Source: a virus
Strand: one strand, 5' to 3'
DNA: 27,619 bases
IMG/VR virus record: IMGVR_UViG_3300046488_000097
Location: 1 to 27,619 of that record
Both the position numbers and the translations under genes were made by a program. Every line of letters starts with the position of its first letter. Within the stretch, counting starts at the first letter, position 1. A model generated the notes under the pieces. That model was given only the letters and a program-made list of their open reading frames with translations, ran no database searches and was not told where the DNA came from. Below, piece by piece: positions 3,492 to 26,201 of the stretch.

Positions 3492-3606
3492 CAGCCACCG
3501 TCCCCTTTATTTCATTCTCTTTCATTGACACCTTCACTGACTGATAAATTCCCCACAGTTCAGTGATGATGGCAATGGCAGCTTTGATATCCGCGAGAGT
3601 TATCAT
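3409..3606 (-). CDS. Small hypothetical protein in lysis region
   Basis: A 65-residue protein not recognised. Residues 4-26 could form an amphipathic helix (IKAAIAIITELWGIYQSV), with no clear membrane span or signal. The remainder is charged. Its ATG overlaps the stop of the upstream gene (ATGA), and its last 83 bases overlap the lipoprotein gene in a different frame. By place it could be a holin regulator or a spanin partner, but nothing in the sequence proves this. Confidence 0.55.
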   Translation of the reverse strand: MITLADIKAAIAIITELWGIYQSVKVSMKENEIKGTVADGIKKSHEYLLADDKAHFNNIFTATVK

Positions 3607-3962
3607 GTGTGCTTCGTATTCCCTTGGATAAAGTCGACAACGCTGCCGAGTACCAAACAGATTTTATTGACGGTTGTAAGAGTCGTTTTATCCGCAGGAA
3701 TCGTGTCACCTTCTTTAACACCGTCGTAAGCGTAGAGGATTTTTCTAAGTGCTGAGAGTGCGGTGAAGGTTGACATCACGATAAATAAAATTGCCGCTTG
3801 GAATCCACCGTGAGCTTGGATCCAACCAAGGATGCCGGTAGCGGGTGCAGCGATGACTGCGATCGGTGCGCTGGCTGCTACGACAGCCGGTGCGACAGGT
3901 GTCATCTCTTGAGCGAACGCGAACGATGCGCAAACTAGGATCAGTGCAAAAATCAGTTTCAT
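3603..3962 (-). CDS. Secreted/membrane protein with signal peptide, candidate holin
   Basis: A 119-residue protein. The start at 3962 is preferred over one 11 codons upstream because AGGAG sits just before it and because a clean signal peptide then begins at residue 1 (hydrophobic 3-16, cleavage after AFA at 18). An Ala/Pro/Val-rich stretch follows (20-42), then a strong membrane segment at about 53-72 (FQAAILFIVMSTFTALSAL) with a positive flank, and a weaker hydrophobic segment at 100-113. It lies between a one-span membrane protein and the lysis genes. Small size and membrane segments fit a holin, but the cleavable signal peptide is unusual for one. Function uncertain. Confidence 0.6.
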   Translation of the reverse strand: MKLIFALILVCASFAFAQEMTPVAPAVVAASAPIAVIAAPATGILGWIQAHGGFQAAILFIVMSTFTALSALRKILYAYDGVKEGDTIPADKTTLTTVNKICLVLGSVVDFIQGNTKHT

Positions 3963-3963
3963 T

Positions 3964-4182
3964 TTAAACTCCTGTGATTTGGGTTGATAGGTCATCTATC
4001 CGCTTATCGGATTTATCAATTCTTACATGAGCCCTTACTCCGCAGTCCTTGGCGTCAGAGATACCCATTCGTGTCTCAGAAACGAACATGCCGCCTTTAA
4101 ATATCCAACCGACAATAAGGCCGATGGTGGCAAAGTTTGTCAGAATCATTCCACCAATCCAATATTTGATATCGTCGTTCAT
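3964..4182 (-). CDS. Small one-span membrane protein, candidate holin or inner-membrane spanin
   Basis: A 72-residue protein with one membrane segment (about residues 8-29, WIGGMILTNFATIGLIVGWIF) followed by a charged C-terminal region (about 38-68) that could form a short coiled coil (KDCGVRAHVRIDKSDKRIDDL). This plan fits a small inner-membrane spanin or an XhlA-like/holin accessory. Its ATG overlaps the TAA of the 956-aa fibre gene (TAATG), so translation is probably coupled. The TAGGT before the start is a weak ribosome site. Confidence 0.6.
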   Translation of the reverse strand: MNDDIKYWIGGMILTNFATIGLIVGWIFKGGMFVSETRMGISDAKDCGVRAHVRIDKSDKRIDDLSTQITGV

Positions 4183-7052
4183 TAGTTACCTACTCGGGCT
4201 AGTGAGAAATAGTTTGTCGCAACATTTGCAACAATCGTCGGAGTCGTTGCGTTCGACGATATTTGAATAGACAGCGTATCACCTGCCACTAGTGGAATTA
4301 CGTCACTTAAGCCAACGTTAAACGATAGGGAGGTAATTGCTGACACACTATATTGAGTCGCAGAATATGATGCCCCATTTTTATATATATAAAAGTCAAC
4401 TACCTGCCCAACGGTAAAAGAACCCGTCACAAATAGAGATGCATTGACTTGATATTTACCTGGAGACTGGACGGTGTAGGTCGAACCAGAATAGGATCCA
4501 TGGGAATCAAAATCTTTCGTCGTGTATGTAACAGCCGATGCGGACCCTGTTATGGTAGCCGTCGCCGAGTGGTACCTCGCATTCACGCTCTCGGAACTCG
4601 CCATCTGCGCGGGGCCTGAGATGCGCTGTACTGTAAACCGGTTAAAGGCCGCGCCAGCTGATAGTGTAAGACTGGTATCAATTCTTAGTGCTATTGTGTC
4701 ACCTGCGATAAAATATCTCAATGCACTTACTTGAGTGGCCGCAGTAGCTGTCCCGAGCGTACCTGCTACAGCACTTGAACCATTAATATAAATATAAATC
4801 GTAGGTGTGCTAGATGATGCGTAAGCCGCCCCGTTAATCTGATAAAATCCAGAAACTGGAACCGTGTATACTCCAGCGCTATATGCTCCGTTGGTATCTT
4901 TAATAACGTTTGTGTAGTTTATGTTTGTGACGTTTGCAGTACAAACTGTGACTGACGTGTCTGATACTAGAGCAACTACATTCGTAGCCGCGTCGCTTGA
5001 CATTATGACTGATGAGGAAAATCCACTCACAGGCACTCGGAAGTTAACTAAAACATAGTCAGCGTTTCCAAAAGCGAACGGTAGAGCCTGAGTTACAGCA
5101 TCTTCGCCAGTAAGATATGTGCCGCTAGCTTTAGGAAGCATAACGGCGATAGATGTCGTTGTATTATAAGTTGGTATCACTGGATATACTTGAACGCCTG
5201 AATCAAGAGCTATTCCATCTCCAAGCGGGTTCAGCGTTGCGACTGTAGGCGTAAGTTTTGACGTATCAATTGTTACTGGGAGATTGATAGTTAACGCTGC
5301 TGATGTTGGCGCTCCAGAGCACAAGACCTTAATTTGATATTCCTCTGAGTCTCCGACACGTCTGCGCAGCCCCGTATAGGTCGTATTCGTTGACCATGAG
5401 CCGGTTGGAGTGAAAGCAACCCAATCCGTTACCGGGCTGCCGTAGGCTACGGACTGTTGTTTTACGACGAAATTATCTAGTAACAAACTCGATGCGCCAA
5501 CTGGAGCTACCGGCGAGTAAATGAATACTTGTATTCCCGTGGTCGTGGAATTTGTTTGAAACGTCCCGCGATAGTCGCCAACGCCTGAAGACTGAGTTAA
5601 TCCAAATGCGCCGTTTATTCCTAGAAATGAGTTATTGGTTACGTCGTAAACTGCGACGGCATATGTGTCTGTGGCTGTTCCGCCCATAACAGGGGCACCG
5701 GAAGCGGACTTAAACTTGAACTGCACCGTCATTACTTTTGCTTGGTAACCGATCGCAATTGGTATCAACTGCGAGACATAGCCGTCACCGATTGTACCGG
5801 CGCCAGAAGTCGCGAGATTCAGAGAGTATATTTTATCAATTGGGCTTGATGATGTTACGGCTGCCGCTGTTGTATTTCCGCCCTTAGCCCGACCGCCGTT
5901 TGAAGTCGTGAGAACTGTACCGCCGGAACCTACACAAGCCGGAAGTCCGTTTGTTATGGTGGCACAACCCATTGCTGACCAACCGCCCGTATCACCGTCT
6001 TCAAAGTCGGTGCCAGCGATCATTAGGTTAGGTTCTGAGTGAGATTGTGTGTTTATAAGCGTCCACTTACCAGCGGCAATGTCAGCCTCGATAGATGAGC
6101 CCGATGTATGAGAGACGAGGCAATTATAGACGTTTCCGCCGTAGGTAACAAAACTTGTGCTCGCGGTGTAGGAAGTTGAAGTTACCCAGGCCGGAAGCCC
6201 CCCGGCAGCGGCAGCGGTCCACGTTGGCGCGGTAGTTGTTCCGCTAGAAGTTAGAACCTGACCATTAGTCCCATTGGCAAGTCGTGTTGGCGTTCCCGAG
6301 GCTCCGCCGTAAATAATGTCGCCTCCGGTTGTCATTGGATTTGTAAGACCGGCGGCGCCCCATGTTGGGGCGAGCGTTGTACCCGCAGAGGTTAAAACTT
6401 GGCCTACAGTGCCGTTAGCGAGAAGAGCGGTCGTTCCGGCGGCGGACTGATACGGGATTTGGCCGCCCGCTCCGCCTGCGATATTTGTCGCAGTTGTGGC
6501 GGTTGTCGCATTACCCGTTAAAGCTCCGGCAAAGGTCGTTGCCGTTACAAGTCCGGTTGAGGGATTAAATGTAAACTTAGTGCTTGATAACTTCGACGGT
6601 AAATTTCCGGTCGTAGTCGTCACCCATAGCGGGTACATCGTAGCATTTGTCGAGGTATCGTCTGTGACTGCAACATTTGTTGAATTTGTAGCAGTCGTTG
6701 CGGTGCTTGCATTACCTGTGAGTGCTGACGTTATCCCTGTAACTGTCATCATTCCCGTTGAGGGATTAAAACTCCACTTGGTGCTTGAAACTTTTGCCGG
6801 AAGATTTCCGGTAGTCGTCGTAACCCAAGAAGGATACATTGTCGCGTTGGTTGTGGTATCGTCTGTAATACCGATGGCTGTCGCACTCGATACATTATCG
6901 ACCGTTCGTGCCAAGGTGCCGGATGACGCAGGCATTGCCCATGTCTTGGTGTGTGCGGGATTTTTAACTCCATCGGCGTCTATATACTTGGTGGCGATAC
7001 CCCAAGCAATTGTCGGTAAAATAATAGTAAGTAATATTAGATATTTTTTCAT
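4182..7052 (-). CDS. Modular tail fibre-like protein with signal peptide and two C1q-like domains
   Basis: A 956-residue likely receptor-binding fibre. Residues 1-18 look like a Sec signal peptide (MKKY, then LILLTIILPTIAWG). Two 60-residue repeats follow (63-122 and 130-189; both contain NATMYPxWVTTTTGNLP and FNPSTG). Two shorter repeats come next at 193-235 and 243-284 (GQVLTSxGTT). A small chitin-binding-like (CBM5/12-type) module is at about 286-333 and a carbohydrate-binding-like beta-sandwich at about 340-532. DWVAFTPTGSW (543-553) opens another common phage fibre domain to about 675. The C-terminus holds two C1q/TNF-like trimer heads (about 694-812 and 826-954). It has a good AGGAG and starts 2 bases after the T7-like fibre gene stop. 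A signal peptide on a fibre is odd. Confidence 0.8.
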   Translation of the reverse strand: MKKYLILLTIILPTIAWGIATKYIDADGVKNPAHTKTWAMPASSGTLARTVDNVSSATAIGITDDTTTNATMYPSWVTTTTGNLPAKVSSTKWSFNPSTGMMTVTGITSALTGNASTATTATNSTNVAVTDDTSTNATMYPLWVTTTTGNLPSKLSSTKFTFNPSTGLVTATTFAGALTGNATTATTATNIAGGAGGQIPYQSAAGTTALLANGTVGQVLTSAGTTLAPTWGAAGLTNPMTTGGDIIYGGASGTPTRLANGTNGQVLTSSGTTTAPTWTAAAAGGLPAWVTSTSYTASTSFVTYGGNVYNCLVSHTSGSSIEADIAAGKWTLINTQSHSEPNLMIAGTDFEDGDTGGWSAMGCATITNGLPACVGSGGTVLTTSNGGRAKGGNTTAAAVTSSSPIDKIYSLNLATSGAGTIGDGYVSQLIPIAIGYQAKVMTVQFKFKSASGAPVMGGTATDTYAVAVYDVTNNSFLGINGAFGLTQSSGVGDYRGTFQTNSTTTGIQVFIYSPVAPVGASSLLLDNFVVKQQSVAYGSPVTDWVAFTPTGSWSTNTTYTGLRRRVGDSEEYQIKVLCSGAPTSAALTINLPVTIDTSKLTPTVATLNPLGDGIALDSGVQVYPVIPTYNTTTSIAVMLPKASGTYLTGEDAVTQALPFAFGNADYVLVNFRVPVSGFSSSVIMSSDAATNVVALVSDTSVTVCTANVTNINYTNVIKDTNGAYSAGVYTVPVSGFYQINGAAYASSSTPTIYIYINGSSAVAGTLGTATAATQVSALRYFIAGDTIALRIDTSLTLSAGAAFNRFTVQRISGPAQMASSESVNARYHSATATITGSASAVTYTTKDFDSHGSYSGSTYTVQSPGKYQVNASLFVTGSFTVGQVVDFYIYKNGASYSATQYSVSAITSLSFNVGLSDVIPLVAGDTLSIQISSNATTPTIVANVATNYFSLARVGN
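6201..6476 (-). repeat. Two short coding repeats in the fibre gene
   Basis: Encode residues 193-235 and 243-284 of the 956-aa fibre. Both copies share the pattern xxxIxYxxAxGTxxxLANGTxGQVLTSxGTTxAPTW, a stacked motif frequent in fibre shafts. Confidence 0.65.
6483..6866 (-). repeat. Tandem 201-base coding repeat in the fibre gene (two copies)
   Basis: Encodes residues 63-122 and 130-189 of the 956-aa fibre, starting 67 codons apart. Both copies read TDDTxTNATMYPxW through LTGNAxTATTATN. The copies have drifted at DNA level but stay well aligned at protein level. Confidence 0.75.
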
Positions 7053-7054
7053 GA

Positions 7055-8332
7055 TTAACTCCTACTCGTTTCAACCCAAAGAGATCGACCGGCATCCCAA
7101 TCGAGATCGAGAACTCTGTTTGCTTCAGCAAGCCAAGCACCTTGGATATTTAAACCTGTTCCGTCTTCAAAAAGAACCGTATCACTATCGGAAGTTCCGA
7201 TGAGTCTAAGCGTTTGACCCTCGTTGGTTGCGGCGGCAATTTGAGGATTAGCCGACATATCGACTCCGCCGGTTCCCTTGATATACTTTTTATTCATGTA
7301 AGCGATACCAGTAAAAGGAACTGTTGTTCCTGCAATACACGCATAAGGTGCTGCAAAAGTTCCGACAATGTTTGGAGTTGCTGCGGCTGCGGCAGAAGCG
7401 GCGGCTGCTATGGCACTGTTGGCTGCGTTAGTCTCTGATATGGCGGCAGCGTTCTGACTCGCAAGAGCGGCGGCTGCTTCAGCGGTCACGTCGATGACAG
7501 ACTGTGCGGCCGCTACTGAAGAAGCGGCAGAGTTAGATGCCTGTAGTGCGCTTGCTGCGGCCTGGTTTGCTGAAGTTACGGCACTTGCTGCTGCGGCACC
7601 GGCAGTTATTACTGCGGCGGCAGAACTTGCGGCTGCGCTAACAGCACTTCCGGCAGCATTGGTTTCTGATATAGCGGCGGCTGCGGCAGAAGCGGCGGCG
7701 GCAATGGCACTTGCTGCGGCTGCGACTTCACTCGCATAAGCGGCTCCTTGGCTTATCAGGGCGGCGGCTGCGGCAGCAACGGCGGCAAGAAGATCAGTTA
7801 CGGGGGTCCAACTTGTAATCGCATTCCACGCGGTCCCGGCCGCATTAGTAGAAGGTATTAAACCCAAGGTGCTTGTAGTCGTTATTCCTTTTGGAAGTGT
7901 AGGATCAAATTCTTCAGGATCGTCATGGTCTGAGAGCTTAACGCTCCGATGACCAAGATAAGCAAGGCGCTGAATACTTCCGGCGATCCAATCAAGGGCG
8001 GCTTCTAATTTTGGAAGCGATAGACCACGCTTGCCTCTAAATTCGTAGGGTTGAGTTGGTGAGTCGTTGGCCTGTAAAATGATCAATCGATATTGATCTG
8101 CTAAAACTGCAAGAAGTGTGATCGTTCCACCACCCGCAACAGGATCAAATTCTACACCACTTAAATATGTTGTTGTGTCAGACCCTCGAACCCGGTGAGT
8201 CTCAGCACCAGCACTGTTGACTTCAATGATCAAGAGTTGGTTGAGTGCTTCGATTTTAAAGTCGAACGTGTAGGCAGCTAAAGTGCCATTTCCGAGATAT
8301 TCTTCGTTTGGTGCAAATTCACTTCGTGCCAT
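7055..8332 (-). CDS. T7 gp17-like tail fibre with alanine-rich shaft
   Basis: A 425-residue fibre. Residues about 1-130 resemble the N-terminal tail-attachment domain of T7 gp17 (YTFDFKIEALNQLLIIEV, TTYLSGVEFD, GGTITLL, PYEFRG, SLPKLEAALDWIAGSIQRL). Residues 182-319 are a very Ala-rich, Ser/Asn-punctuated shaft that should form a trimeric coiled coil; SETNAA appears twice (near 221 and 299). Residues 320-425 are a small C-terminal domain. The shaft ends without a large receptor-binding head, so the following 956-aa fibre may carry the adhesin function and dock on this one. AAAGGA precedes the ATG. It lies 4 bases downstream of the giant ejection protein gene. Confidence 0.85.
   Translation of the reverse strand: MARSEFAPNEEYLGNGTLAAYTFDFKIEALNQLLIIEVNSAGAETHRVRGSDTTTYLSGVEFDPVAGGGTITLLAVLADQYRLIILQANDSPTQPYEFRGKRGLSLPKLEAALDWIAGSIQRLAYLGHRSVKLSDHDDPEEFDPTLPKGITTTSTLGLIPSTNAAGTAWNAITSWTPVTDLLAAVAAAAAALISQGAAYASEVAAAASAIAAAASAAAAAISETNAAGSAVSAAASSAAAVITAGAAAASAVTSANQAAASALQASNSAASSVAAAQSVIDVTAEAAAALASQNAAAISETNAANSAIAAAASAAAAATPNIVGTFAAPYACIAGTTVPFTGIAYMNKKYIKGTGGVDMSANPQIAAATNEGQTLRLIGTSDSDTVLFEDGTGLNIQGAWLAEANRVLDLDWDAGRSLWVETSRS
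7376..7789 (-). repeat. Low-complexity alanine-codon region of the fibre shaft
   Basis: About 138 codons dominated by GCN alanine codons (residues 182-319 of the T7-like fibre), with the block AAAISETNAA(G/N)SA occurring twice 78 codons apart. This bias also creates a long open frame on the other strand that is not a gene. Confidence 0.7.
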
Positions 8333-21331: not shown

Positions 21332-22354
21332 TTATGTTATTTGGTCTTCAGAACTGAGCAGAGCATCCATTCGGCGAACAGGATCGCCAAGGAACATCAA
21401 GCAAGGTTTGCCTTGATAATTATCATAGGTGATCCCTGCACCAGCTCCAACTTTCGTTAGAGATTGCTTATGCAAGAAAGCCTGAATGGTTCGATTCACA
21501 TACCAAACGCCTGTTCCGTTTTCCAGGGTGTGGATTTTGTAGTTTGCGCTGATCATAAGATCAATCAAATCAGCGGCGCCAACTCCCGATTTCAAAAGGG
21601 CTGGATCAATATTTGCGATCCTGGCAGCTTGGCGATAATCTTTAACAACCAAACCGTGATCCATTTCGAAATCTTCTTCGTATCCCCAGAAAGTTCCAGC
21701 TGCGCCGTTCTCATCTGTTCCGGCAATTTGAACAAGTTGCTTACCGGGAGATCGATCGGTTCTCTTCAAACCAGCCTGAGTTCCTTCAGGATAAACACCG
21801 AAGATCGAACGCTCACCCCAATGAACTTTGAGGATTGAACAGTTGTCAGTGGTTGTTCCACCAGCGTCGATAATTTGTTTCGAGGTTTCTTCAGATGCAC
21901 TCAAGGTTGAGTACACATCAAAGAATCCAGGGCATTTTCGATTTGAATCAATGGGAGATCCGTAAATTGCGAGAGAGGCAAGTTCCAAAGCCATCGCTTG
22001 GATGTGACCTTGAGCTTGGTTCCATCGATTGTACCCGATGCGATCTTGACCACCACGAGCAGCTACGGCGGCGTCGATCTGAGATTTCGACTCAAAGTGA
22101 GCGGCAGAATATGTGCGCTCCTCACTTGTCGTTTTAGAAGCAGGAATTGGCTGGTTCGCTTTACGGTAATAAACCGTAGGGAGACCAGAACGGATAGATT
22201 CTTTGTGGATGGTTTTTTCGTTCATCACCATATAAGGGATGTCGTTCAACATCGCATTTTCTTGAATCAAAACTTCGGCCACGTCGCCAATGTTGTTGCC
22301 TTTTTCTTTTGCGACGTCAGCTAGTGTTACTAAGGTTGCGCCAAGAACTGCCAT
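21332..22354 (-). CDS. Major capsid protein, GP7/Bbp17 family
   Basis: A 340-residue protein of the GP7-type major capsid family (BPP-1-like fold): TLADVAKEKG, DVAEVLIQENAMLNDIPYM, IRSGLPTVYYRKANQPIPASKTT (the RTGLPxxxWRxxNxGxxxSKST signature, about residues 55-77), then a SKSQIDAAVAARGG helix, ALYG-type LAIYGSPIDSNRKCPGF and a C-terminal NRTIQAFLHKQ/GIPCLMF-like strand. In BPP-1 this family has a rearranged HK97-like fold. GGAGG (22362-22366) is placed seven bases before the ATG. Scaffold upstream and cement downstream agree. Very confident. Confidence 0.93.
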   Translation of the reverse strand: MAVLGATLVTLADVAKEKGNNIGDVAEVLIQENAMLNDIPYMVMNEKTIHKESIRSGLPTVYYRKANQPIPASKTTSEERTYSAAHFESKSQIDAAVAARGGQDRIGYNRWNQAQGHIQAMALELASLAIYGSPIDSNRKCPGFFDVYSTLSASEETSKQIIDAGGTTTDNCSILKVHWGERSIFGVYPEGTQAGLKRTDRSPGKQLVQIAGTDENGAAGTFWGYEEDFEMDHGLVVKDYRQAARIANIDPALLKSGVGAADLIDLMISANYKIHTLENGTGVWYVNRTIQAFLHKQSLTKVGAGAGITYDNYQGKPCLMFLGDPVRRMDALLSSEDQIT

Positions 22355-22378: not shown

Positions 22379-23188
22379 TCAATTACTATAATATTCTAAA
22401 GGGTTGCGTTTTTCACCAGCGGGTTTTTCAGGTATAGACGGTTCTCCCTGAATCAAATTTTCAGTGGAATAGAGATGTTCGGCTAACTTTGCAAGATCCC
22501 GCATGACATAAGGAGGCAACACGGACCCCCGGTCAGTCAATTCTTTTTTTGTAAGCGGCATAAATTCTTGCAAAACTTTCTCCACGTGCATCACGTTGTG
22601 TTGCATTTTCTCACCACCAAAGACCGGATCGGCCTTCAGTTCTGAGTACCACTTCGAGCGAGTCGCTGCGACTTCTCTCTCAGCATTTTTAATAGCTTCA
22701 GCCTGAGCTGTTGCAATCTCTTTTACCTCGCCTGCTCTTAAATCCAAGTAAGCTTGAGCCGCCGTCTGAGTAAGTCCATGAGCTTTTGCGAACTCTTTGA
22801 CTTTTGTCACTTCGTCTTTCGGAATAACTTCGTCAACCTTTAGTTCAAATCCTAGCTCAACAGGCGGTTCAACAACCGGAGGTTTAACTTCCTCAACGAT
22901 TACAGGTGGTTCTTTATCATAACCAGTTGCAAGTTTTTCAATTTTATCATCTGGCTTTTTGTCTAGTTTTTTGGCTTTGGGGTCTTTATCTCCCTCATCC
23001 TTGGAGATTTTTTCGTACCCAAATTCGTCGAATTGTTTATCCCCTGTTCCTTCAGGCGCCTTATCAATTTTTTCCGGAGGTGGCGTTGGTGTAATTTTGG
23101 GCTCAACGACTGCTGATCCGACACCGGTTCCTCCTGTGGCATCATCTGCTTTGTCGAGCGGTATTTTGTTCTGCAACTTTTTGATCAT
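22379..23188 (-). CDS. Scaffolding protein
   Basis: A 269-residue protein that should guide capsid assembly and then leave. The first about 110 residues are acidic/basic, Pro/Lys-rich and likely disordered. The C-terminal half is helical (VTKVKEFAKAHGLTQTAAQ; AQAEAIKNAEREVAATRSKW; the ADPVFGGEKMQHNVMHVEKVLQEF segment) and typical of scaffold proteins of GP7-type phages. The start is set at ATG 23188, where AAAGGA lies just upstream; an upstream in-frame start at 23257 lacks such a site. It overlaps the Bbp19-like gene by 47 bases in another frame, and ends 24 bases before the capsid gene. Confidence 0.85.
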   Translation of the reverse strand: MIKKLQNKIPLDKADDATGGTGVGSAVVEPKITPTPPPEKIDKAPEGTGDKQFDEFGYEKISKDEGDKDPKAKKLDKKPDDKIEKLATGYDKEPPVIVEEVKPPVVEPPVELGFELKVDEVIPKDEVTKVKEFAKAHGLTQTAAQAYLDLRAGEVKEIATAQAEAIKNAEREVAATRSKWYSELKADPVFGGEKMQHNVMHVEKVLQEFMPLTKKELTDRGSVLPPYVMRDLAKLAEHLYSTENLIQGEPSIPEKPAGEKRNPLEYYSN

Positions 23189-23474
23189 AACGATCCTTTT
23201 CCTTTCTTGCGAGCAGCGTCCCGGCTTGTTCGTAATCAGCCTCAGACGCGAGTTCAAAGATTGCTTGTCCTGCTCGCAAGTGACCTAACATCTCTCGGAT
23301 AAATTCCTGTGGCAAACCAATTGCTGGAATTTCTCCTACTTGGAACTCTTTAAAAAAATACTTAAAGAGTTCTCTACCCGAAGTTGTGGCAAGGACTGCG
23401 CGGGTATGAAGCACAACATCTCTGTGCTCAATCGCTTCGCGCTGTTCTTCCTCAGTCAACTCCGGCCGTTCCAT
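23142..23474 (-). CDS. Bbp19-like protein
   Basis: A 110-residue helical protein with the pattern of the Bbp19 family: TTSGRELFKYFFKEFQVG, then LRAGQAIFELASEADYEQAGTLLARK. Homologues lie between portal and scaffold genes of BPP-1-like podoviruses; their exact role is unknown. Its ATG overlaps the stop of the upstream secreted repeat protein (TAATG), so it is translationally coupled to it. Family confidence moderate to good. Confidence 0.72.
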   Translation of the reverse strand: MERPELTEEEQREAIEHRDVVLHTRAVLATTSGRELFKYFFKEFQVGEIPAIGLPQEFIREMLGHLRAGQAIFELASEADYEQAGTLLARKEKDRYDQKVAEQNTARQSR

Positions 23475-24472
23475 TAGTACGTGAAAGCCACTGGTCCCAC
23501 GTCAGCTGTGAAGCTCGTAGGAGGTGTGATTGTTGCTACAGTTCCAAACGTCTGACCTGTGATATCTCCAGTATAACCCGCGTACTGGCCAACAGCTGGG
23601 GCAGTACGGAAACGATCGGTTGTTCCATTCATGTAAAGTCCGATCCAGTAGGTTCCGGTTTTGGCAGCATAGGTTCCTGTGAAAGCCAAAACCTGATAAG
23701 CATCTGCACCTGAAGTCGTAATACCAGAGAGTGAGGAGTTCGCAACAACGGCACCAGCACTGTTGAACAGAGCGACAATCCATTTATTGGTTCCGACTGT
23801 GGCTGCGTTATTGACATAAACACCTGTGAGAGTGGAGTTATGAGGGATGACAATCTGACTCACATAGACGTGAGTTGCTACAGCGGCCGTTGAAGTCCCA
23901 GCAGTAAGAGTTGATGGTTTCCATCCCATGAAATTATGAAACAAATCACCAAGAGCGATACCGCCTGTGAAGGTCGTTGCGCCCGTATGAGTCGTTGCAC
24001 CGGTCACATTCAGTGTTCCACCAACGACTGTATTTCCACTTGAAGCTGCGACCGTGAAGCTGCTCGTATTTACTGCAACGTCACCTGTAACTCCAAGTGT
24101 TCCACCAACTACAGTATTACCGCTTGCGGCTGTAACTTGGAATTTGTTGGTTGCTACGGCGAAGTCGCTTGTGAGTGCCAGGGTTCCGGCAATCAGAGTA
24201 TTTCCGCTCGATGCTGCAACTGTGAATTTGTTTGTGTTGATGTCGAAGTTTCCGGCTGCGTGGAGAGTCGTACTGAGGGAGAGCGACGTTCCAGTGAGAG
24301 TAGGACTTGAGACCGCCGTAATCGTACTTCCGTTTTTTGTACACGTCAGTCCGGTCGAACACTTGAAAGTCGTAACGACTCCCAAATTGCTCGTTCCATT
24401 GTACATCAAAATTCCCGCTTGCGCGTTGGTAGCAAACAACGCCATCGCTATTAACAGTGAAACCAATTTCAT
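23474..24472 (-). CDS. Secreted-looking repeat protein inside the head module
   Basis: A 332-residue protein of unknown role. Residues 1-19 are a classical Sec signal peptide (MKLVSLLIAMALFATNAQA, cleavage after AQA). Residues 79-160 hold three copies of a 28-residue beta-repeat, (N/A)T(N)xF(T/Q)V(A)ASSGNTxxxGTLxxTxDxAV. The C-terminal region (180-332) is a jelly-roll/lectin-like domain with YWIGLYMNG and WIVALFNSAG strands. GGGGAA precedes the ATG. It stands where most BPP-1-like phages have portal followed directly by Bbp19. Possibly a head fibre, an adhesin or an exported surface protein; the signal peptide argues for export. No family recognised. Confidence 0.75.
   Translation of the reverse strand: MKLVSLLIAMALFATNAQAGILMYNGTSNLGVVTTFKCSTGLTCTKNGSTITAVSSPTLTGTSLSLSTTLHAAGNFDINTNKFTVAASSGNTLIAGTLALTSDFAVATNKFQVTAASGNTVVGGTLGVTGDVAVNTSSFTVAASSGNTVVGGTLNVTGATTHTGATTFTGGIALGDLFHNFMGWKPSTLTAGTSTAAVATHVYVSQIVIPHNSTLTGVYVNNAATVGTNKWIVALFNSAGAVVANSSLSGITTSGADAYQVLAFTGTYAAKTGTYWIGLYMNGTTDRFRTAPAVGQYAGYTGDITGQTFGTVATITPPTSFTADVGPVAFTY
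23993..24238 (-). repeat. Three tandem 84-base coding repeats
   Basis: Encode residues 79-160 of the secreted repeat protein as three units of 28 residues (79-106, 107-134, 135-160). Each holds F(T/Q)V, ASSGNT or AASGNT, and GTLxxT. The repeat is in phase with the codons. Confidence 0.75.
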
Positions 24473-24482
24473 AAATTCCCCT

Positions 24483-26201
24483 TTATTGACTTTGTTGTTG
24501 TTGCGCTTTCATTCCAACATCTTTTGCGGCCCCGGCCATTGCTGGGATCGTTTGTTCCATCATTTGTTGTCTCTGTGCCATTGCCTGCGCTTGTTCACGC
24601 ATAGCATCGACTTTTCCCTGTGGATTATTAAGTCCAGTAGGTAAGAAAAGTCTATCCTCATAAAGATCACAGAACTTGTCAATATTCACTTTATCCCAAA
24701 CCTTCGGTTGAATTTGACCAATCTCCATAATTTTTGCGATATATCGATCGATCGAAGGAAGATCCGCAGCCTTCTGAGCTTGGGCAAATACTGAGATAAA
24801 TTCAGCCTGTAGGAACTGACCCGAGAGTCCTTGTGGTGGAGGTTCCAAATAAGGATCCTTATCGAGAACAAAGTCCATCACGAATTCAAATAGAGGCACG
24901 TTATAGGTCCAGTTGAGTGACTGAAGACATGGTCCAATAATTAGTTGTTGTTCCTGGACGACAGCGTTGGTCTCTGTCGCAGTTCGAGTCTTTGGATTTT
25001 GAGAGAGATAAAGAAGATAGTCGGAATAGTATAATTTTCCAACTTGCTCTCTCATATCACTGACATCTTGAACGAGTGCACCTATTCCGGGATTGACTTC
25101 GAATATCGGGCGCAGTCCCTTTTGAGCAAGCGAAGTCGGATCGAGAGGCACATAAGAGTTAGACGCCGTTGTAATATATGACTTTCTAAGATTCGCTGGT
25201 CCCTGCAAAGCCGGTCTAAGCATTTGCTGGAGAGCTTCATCTTTTCCGATAGCTTTTTTATTGAGCGATTTAATGAGACCAAGTGCGTCAGATGTTGGTC
25301 CTTTTTCTCCGTACTCAAAATTTCCGCCAGCGTCGGACTTCCCGACAATAAAGGGTTTTCGTTTCGATGCTGATCTTTTCAGATACATTTCCTGTTCACC
25401 AAAAGCAGGAACACCGGGATTACCGATATCGTATCCGTCTTGAAAATATTGTCCGGTTGCTGAACCAATTTCATAGGTCACAGCAATCCATCTTTTATTT
25501 AAAAGTGCCTGAGGTTTATTCGGATCAAACGCGTTGTTCTCTTTTACAATATGAACCACGTCGATTTTTTGAGTGTAGTTTCCTACCTCATACATCCGTC
25601 TGACTCGATTTGAAAAGTTCGACCAGTCCCACTTGCCGTTAACTTTACGGCCGTAGGTATCAACGAGAGCTTTTACTGTGAGCGCAAACTCTCGAACCAA
25701 GACAGTGGCTTCATTGAAACCGTTGTTAATTACGAAGTAAGAACCCGGATCCATATTATGAAAATACAAGTTCCCACGAATCTCATCAATGTAGTGACCA
25801 CCGGTATTGAGTCCGCCGAAGTCTGAGTAAAATCCCGCAGCTGCATTGTAATAATTGCAAGAAGTAAGAGCATGGTGACAACGGTCAGTGTACTTTTGAA
25901 GCCAGGATTTATTTTCCGGTTGTTCATTGAGATCATCATTCTTTGAAAACACGCGAGCCCACGGCCGCGACGCTGAGGTGTTACCCTCTAAAAATCCGGC
26001 CACAAACGATCGGTGCGAAAGTATATGAGTTGAGTCTACGATATGTTGATTATTTCGCTCACCTTGAATCTGTGAAGTCATCCACTTGATACGGTGCGGA
26101 ATTACCCAACGGCCGCAATCAATCCACGTCTGTCTGACTTTTGTAAAATTTTGTTTGGCCTGGATTCGCAGATACTCATACTGGCCTTTTGTGAAATCCA
26201 T
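24483..26201 (-). CDS. Portal protein (T7 gp8/BPP-1-type head-tail connector)
   Basis: A 572-residue portal. Features of the head-tail connector family are clear: the N-terminal helix with RQTWIDCGRWVIPHRIKWMTSQ, then HIVDSTHILSHRSFVAGFLEGNTSASRPWARVF (the common DSTxxxAxxxLAxxLxxxLxxPxxRWF pattern, about residues 55-86), MDPGSYFV, then a long C-terminal part with NPGIGALVQDVSDMREQVGKLYY and TRTATETNAVVQEQ, and a Gln-rich tail. Size fits T7 gp8 (536). It starts with TAATG at the end of the small glycine-rich gene. High confidence. Confidence 0.92.
   Translation of the reverse strand: MDFTKGQYEYLRIQAKQNFTKVRQTWIDCGRWVIPHRIKWMTSQIQGERNNQHIVDSTHILSHRSFVAGFLEGNTSASRPWARVFSKNDDLNEQPENKSWLQKYTDRCHHALTSCNYYNAAAGFYSDFGGLNTGGHYIDEIRGNLYFHNMDPGSYFVINNGFNEATVLVREFALTVKALVDTYGRKVNGKWDWSNFSNRVRRMYEVGNYTQKIDVVHIVKENNAFDPNKPQALLNKRWIAVTYEIGSATGQYFQDGYDIGNPGVPAFGEQEMYLKRSASKRKPFIVGKSDAGGNFEYGEKGPTSDALGLIKSLNKKAIGKDEALQQMLRPALQGPANLRKSYITTASNSYVPLDPTSLAQKGLRPIFEVNPGIGALVQDVSDMREQVGKLYYSDYLLYLSQNPKTRTATETNAVVQEQQLIIGPCLQSLNWTYNVPLFEFVMDFVLDKDPYLEPPPQGLSGQFLQAEFISVFAQAQKAADLPSIDRYIAKIMEIGQIQPKVWDKVNIDKFCDLYEDRLFLPTGLNNPQGKVDAMREQAQAMAQRQQMMEQTIPAMAGAAKDVGMKAQQQQSQ

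Follow-up and report, generated by a model that had tools for sequence, protein, structure and literature searches.

Putative Sec-exported spike-like proteins encoded in the head modules of epsilon15/BPP-1-type phages

Introduction

The virions of tailed phages are held to assemble in the cytoplasm. The solved phage capsid proteins closest in predicted fold to the proteins described here are the capsid spike of phage Pa223 (PDB 9ny6), a virion protein of which chain C was identified by sequence search as PaP3 orf20, and chain Z of the capsid asymmetric unit of cyanophage A4 (PDB 9jwb), identified likewise as A-4L gp25. The PaP3 orf20 gene is placed at the end of the structural module and the A-4L gp25 gene between fibre genes. 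Both proteins lack a signal peptide, and spikes of this kind can therefore be produced in the cytoplasm. The same tip-module folds (Z about 9-14) occur in Douge gp20, Bxb1, phi812, CBA120 TSP4 and T4 gp9-gp10-type modules, although these are tail components encoded at other gene positions. To our knowledge, signal peptides are not a feature of the tail-fibre tip, TSP4 or T4 gp9-gp10-type families.

Phage genomes do encode exported proteins such as Llp, Cor and Lom of phage lambda, but these are lipoproteins or beta-barrels and do not have head-module spike folds. Llp of T5 is a functional precedent for an exported exclusion protein, with a different fold (PMC9586334), and lambda Lom is likewise exported and encoded in the late region (PMC12309495). 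A logic of signal peptide, fibre-like shaft and swappable tip, as found in the family described below, is known from the mosaic adhesive trimer (MAT) proteins of Bdellovibrio (PMC10769870). The MAT proteins are encoded by bacterial genes and, by their published description, carry a conserved beta-rich domain of ~130 aa directly after the signal peptide (PMC10769870). In the phage family, the conserved stretch at this place seems to span about 40 residues, with no evident domain of the MAT kind.

The locus and its gene neighbourhood

The window, i.e., the whole analysed stretch of 27,619 nucleotides of the IMG/VR record IMGVR_UViG_3300046488_000097, is a fragment of an epsilon15/BPP-1-type podovirus with a phrog_376 tail protein and with portal, scaffold and major capsid protein (MCP) genes in conserved order. 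On the minus strand, the portal or head-tail connector gene (24483..26201; PF12236, E 8e-73; phrog_332) is followed by the gene of a 332-aa signal-peptide protein, P0001 (23474..24472, ATG start), a gene in the position of Bbp19 (23142..23474, 110 aa), the gene of a scaffold/protease-like protein (22379..23257; phrog_458, E 1e-7) and the MCP gene (21332..22354; PF20911, E 3e-81). The Bbp19-position gene, for which Pfam and PHROGs had no match, was assigned from its place in the operon and from how it aligns with its counterpart in relatives. Ten bases separate the portal stop codon from the P0001 gene, the ribosome-binding site AAGGGG (24473..24485, minus strand) overlaps that stop codon, and the P0001 gene shares a TAATG stop-start overlap (23472..23476, minus strand) with the downstream Bbp19-position gene. 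No dedicated terminator was found for the P0001 gene, as a scan near the gene returned chance-level terminators only. This ten-base gap and the TAATG overlap differ from the arrangement of a moron, which has its own promoter and terminator between conserved genes.

The window also contains a fragment of a phage DNA polymerase gene, and no integrase gene was seen in this partial genome. Lipoprotein-like genes in the lysis region, identified by eye, suggest a Gram-negative host; Bdellovibrio was considered as host and dropped, since no host link supported it. Genome-contig scans gave no match with the window tip and two MAG contigs only with the MCP, and a single-sequence search of IMG/VR with the window portal found nothing.

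Architecture of the 332-aa protein

The Sec signal peptide covers residues 1-19 (MKLVSLLIAMALFATNAQA, followed by Gly20; 24416..24472, minus strand), was called with a heuristic score of 4.66 and has its predicted cleavage site between Ala19 and Gly20, which would leave a mature N-terminus GILMYN. It is followed by a conserved mature N-terminal segment (residues 20-57; 24302..24415, minus strand) that contains the pair Cys38/Cys44 in the motif CSTGLTC (context KCSTGLTC) and is predicted from the models to form a beta-hairpin. Residues 70-153 (24014..24265, minus strand) consist of three 28-residue fibre-type repeats (70-97, 98-125 and 126-153) with pairwise identities of 50-64%; the best tandem 28-mer identity was 0.71, whereas 200 residue shuffles gave at most 0.46, and the region matches phrog_697 (E 6e-13). 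The repeat is similar to the shafts of phage fibres that have no signal peptide at their N-termini, and relatives sharing only the repeat (L002-L032) were set aside as unrelated fibres. The C-terminal part (residues about 183-332; 23477..23926, minus strand) is a predicted beta-sandwich tip, here referred to as type B. The signal peptide, the three repeats and the TAATG coupling that a preliminary description of this DNA had reported are thus all seen in the sequence.

Scans of Pfam and PHROGs returned no family for P0001 beyond the repeat-type phrog_697, the L039 relative giving a sub-threshold match to DUF4082, and PDB sequence searches with P0001 and with profiles found no relative. In the phage isolate collection there was no match to the protein of L063 or to a fibre N-terminus, and none to the N-terminal or type A form of the family. 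With neither a Pfam nor a PHROGs entry, and with no isolate of that collection found to have its N-terminus or type A form, the family escapes current annotation.

Distribution of the family and position in the head module

A profile scan of IMG/VR with the MCP yielded 35 loci, and in most of those with portal and scaffold visible the slot between portal and Bbp19 is occupied by a signal-peptide protein of 154-651 aa. Four loci with related capsid proteins (L054, L058, L078 and L079) are without the family gene, which is therefore not essential for heads. A second scan, with the family profile, showed that phages with portals only 26-30% identical to that of the window also have a signal-peptide protein, here too between portal and Bbp19. 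After removal of near-identical entries at a 90% cut, the scans resulted in 42 distinct relatives, nearly all located in head modules and most of them between portal and Bbp19 of epsilon15/BPP-1-type phages. In phiV10, Mel-JY33 and AF the family is absent and the portal is directly followed by the small Bbp19-position gene; BPP-1, also without the family, has an unrelated gene lacking a signal peptide in the slot. The preliminary description had called the gene inserted, which is true relative to phiV10, BPP-1, AF and Mel-JY33; within the window's own clade, the gene regularly occupies the slot and is not a one-off insertion.

Outside this slot, judged by gene size and order, L149 has the family gene between its scaffold and capsid protein genes, and L145 has it near or after that of the capsid protein; the position in L139 is likewise near or after the capsid protein. 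The P22-like phages L034, L041 and L042 encode a signal-peptide protein with a type B tip after a capsid-protein-like gene, and the P22-like L040 was left out of the position count because no MCP is visible in the fragment. An exception is L138, with the family gene after a lysis-type gene. The repeated landing of the gene in head modules favours a role in the head, and the position would also fit a non-virion gene that is carried in the late operon. The preliminary description had proposed a comparison of gene order and had regarded conservation in all relatives as a head component as speaking against its view of an exported protein; the presence/absence comparison found a conserved gene in head position, yet the signal peptide is still kept.

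Several neighbouring genes were recorded besides. In L063 the signal-peptide protein and the Bbp19-position gene are separated by a gene with an HNH-like motif (5364-5891), and in L066 a second, unrelated signal-peptide-like protein (4719-5210, 163 aa) precedes the family protein in the same slot. Further signal-peptide-like N-termini were observed in the tail region of P22-like phages (L040:3936-5801, L041:12190-13182 and L042:13419-14345).

Conservation of the signal peptide and modularity

A simple heuristic written for this analysis called a signal peptide in 40 of the 42 distinct relatives, and the remaining two look like signal peptides by eye; in the same records, the background rate among the remaining proteins of 150 aa or longer was 6/279. 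All 41 relatives with a predicted site have Ala at -1, which is partly favoured by the scoring, and small residues occupy -3 throughout the family, resulting in predicted cleavage sites of the A-X-A type, as expected for signal peptidase I. As the signal peptide is conserved across the family, export of these proteins is well supported at the level of sequence. No family member has a Cys at +1, i.e., the lipobox of the Llp/Cor type is lacking, and the family protein contains no beta-barrel. Just after the cleavage site, a Cys pair was detected by pattern in 39/42 relatives, or 40/42 if the wider-spaced pair of L039 is counted, and type A tips have a second, invariant Cys pair. Such conserved Cys pairs suit an oxidising compartment.

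The middle region is variable and ranges from absent in L039 (222 aa) to long repeats in L046 (651 aa), so that the repeats are dispensable in the family. The tips fall into several types. Type B is found in the window, L033 and L039, a distribution that takes no fewer than two independent changes on the starred branches of the MCP tree, and tips are therefore exchanged. The mature N-terminus remains conserved under the swapped tips. Both gene losses and tip changes are scattered over the tree. A 76-aa in-frame remnant of a family protein in L068 (5615-5845) keeps only the signal peptide and the end of the tip.

Predicted tip folds

AlphaFold2 modelled the tips with confidence, whereas the shafts came out weakly. 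The best match of the type B tip of the window was 9jwb_Z (Foldseek E 3e-5; Z 15.2, rmsd 2.8, 139 aligned residues), and a profile comparison of the window family with A-4L gp25 showed no significant sequence similarity. The end of the protein, which had been described as lectin-like, models as a confident beta-sandwich; its nearest solved match is a capsid protein, and CBM and lectin folds rank lower (Z about 6-8). Type B tips match tail-fibre tips as well. The type A tip gave the Pa223 capsid spike, 9ny6_C (Foldseek E 4e-5), and residues 61-161 of L072 align to residues 197-294 of this chain (Z 11.1, rmsd 2.5), with CBA120 TSP4 and T4 gp9/gp10-type modules matching equally. Hence, the nearest solved structures of both modelled tip types include capsid proteins, and the predicted tip fold is common to solved capsid spike or decoration proteins, a fold that in itself shows no function. 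The window protein and its relatives differ from both solved proteins in carrying a signal peptide, from PaP3 orf20 further in the N-terminal part and from A-4L gp25 in having repeats.

A second signal-peptide fibre and a holin candidate

Two other proteins of the window's late operon have signal-peptide-like N-termini, as the preliminary description had noted. The 956-aa fibre (4182..7052, minus strand), a second member of the set, has a signal peptide by heuristic call and a weak chitin-binding-like CBM5/12 module. This module (residues 288-319; window 6096-6191) is a sub-threshold match (E 1.4e-4), with 1ed7, chitinase A1, at E 0.003. The 130-aa holin candidate (3603..3995, minus strand) combines a signal-peptide-like N-terminus with a further hydrophobic segment. 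Next to the fibre lies an adaptor-like gene without signal peptide (7055..8332, minus strand) encoding a T7-fibre-like N-terminus and an Ala-rich stalk; in relatives, the signal-peptide fibre gene comes after a homologue of this gene. Long signal-peptide fibres are present in the window and ten relatives and adjoin, or lie one gene from, the adaptor-like gene in the window and nine of the ten. In G011 the adaptor gene is overlaid by an opposite-strand ORF and was confirmed, and G014 showed no adaptor homologue. Adaptor and fibre occur as two pairs in G001, and in G007 a single adaptor is followed by two signal-peptide fibres. Additionally, five small genes with signal-peptide-like N-termini form a run after the fibre in G009 (25316-28158, in L099), and gp25 of Pseudomonas phage AF (340 aa; L120:24808-25830) has a signal-peptide-like N-terminus and follows Rz-like genes.

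This second fibre, together with the conservation of the signal peptide in the P0001 family, bears out the earlier suggestion of a set of exported proteins rather than an accident. That suggestion had envisaged envelope or cell-surface proteins. The capsid-spike, fibre and gp10-like folds of the tips, the sites in head modules of several phage types and the pairing of the fibre with a tail-fibre adaptor gene point to virion appendages instead.

Discussion

The reading that we favour, tentatively and short of calling it probable, is that P0001 and its relatives are modular proteins of the head-spike or head-fibre type that enter the Sec pathway, are exported to the periplasm and dock on virions at lysis. 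In such a pathway, translational coupling within the late operon would yield the precursor, which would be cut between Ala19 and Gly20 and fold outside the cytoplasm, in the periplasm of the presumed Gram-negative host. A disulfide between Cys38 and Cys44 could then sit at the base of a beta-hairpin bearing the optional fibre-repeat shaft and the exchangeable beta-sandwich tip. At lysis, mature spikes would meet released virions and dock via the conserved N-terminal segment, and the tip displayed on the head could bind host or environmental glycans or surfaces. The computation supports the conservation of the signal peptide, the Cys pair, the head-module position and the exchange of tips, and the capsid-spike-like fold of the tips is predicted; from these we infer that the precursor is cleaved, that the disulfide forms, that the protein docks on virions and that it has a ligand. 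Late mounting is physically plausible, since tailspikes of P22 can join heads in vitro.

The main rival to spike docking is an exported exclusion or decoy protein, i.e., a spike-like protein that stays in the periplasm or on the outer surface, or is released at lysis, and whose tip masks receptors or glycans. Like Cor and Llp, which have another fold, it would block superinfection or keep progeny from re-adsorbing to debris. The signal peptide, the Cys pair, the diverse binding-type tips with CBM-like folds and the precedent of exported exclusion proteins from late operons (Llp of T5, PMC9586334) fit such a role, but it predicts neither the head-module position across phage types nor a mature N-terminus conserved under swapped tips, the proteins have neither lipobox nor beta-barrel, and the second fibre goes together with a virion adaptor gene, so that we consider it rather doubtful. 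That the hydrophobic N-terminus is retained and tethers an otherwise ordinary cytoplasmic head fibre to the membrane, with assembly proceeding close to the inner membrane, would agree with the adjoining portal gene and with the match of the tip to capsid spikes; it is improbable, as the Ala at -1 and small residues at -3 fit signal peptidase I, a pattern that a tether does not need, and the Cys pairs speak against it as well.

An in-frame ATG at codon 24 of the window gene could make a cytoplasmic head spike from a downstream start, the exported form being incidental. This model was rejected as very improbable, because the segment from signal peptide to Cys motif contains no conserved start codon and has a Met in only 4/42 relatives, and because in the relatives listed the long start is preceded by a ribosome-binding site. 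Least probable of all is a moron or lysogenic-conversion gene that landed in the head operon by accident: phiV10, AF, BPP-1 and Mel-JY33 manage without the gene, and the scattered losses and tip changes would suit such an origin, but the gene is translationally coupled with no promoter-terminator unit of its own, has been conserved in the slot across the clade over the long term, and stands in a partial genome with a phage DNA polymerase gene and no visible integrase.

Spike docking after export, if extended to both kinds of protein, would mean that a tailed-phage lineage makes its head spikes and a second fibre via Sec, with folding and oxidation of these parts taking place in the periplasm and their attachment to completed virions delayed until lysis. 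We regard this wider proposal as possible, with more doubt than the docking of the P0001 family itself. In the openly accessible papers searched, with subscription literature outside the search, neither such a Sec-dependent assembly route for tailed phages nor signal peptides on phage spikes were described. Kept across divergent phages, the combination of capsid-spike-like tips with an export signal would mean either that virion assembly can include a secretion step or that exported phage fibres form a large class so far overlooked. It hints that some phages may make surface parts of their virions via the secretion pathway of the cell.
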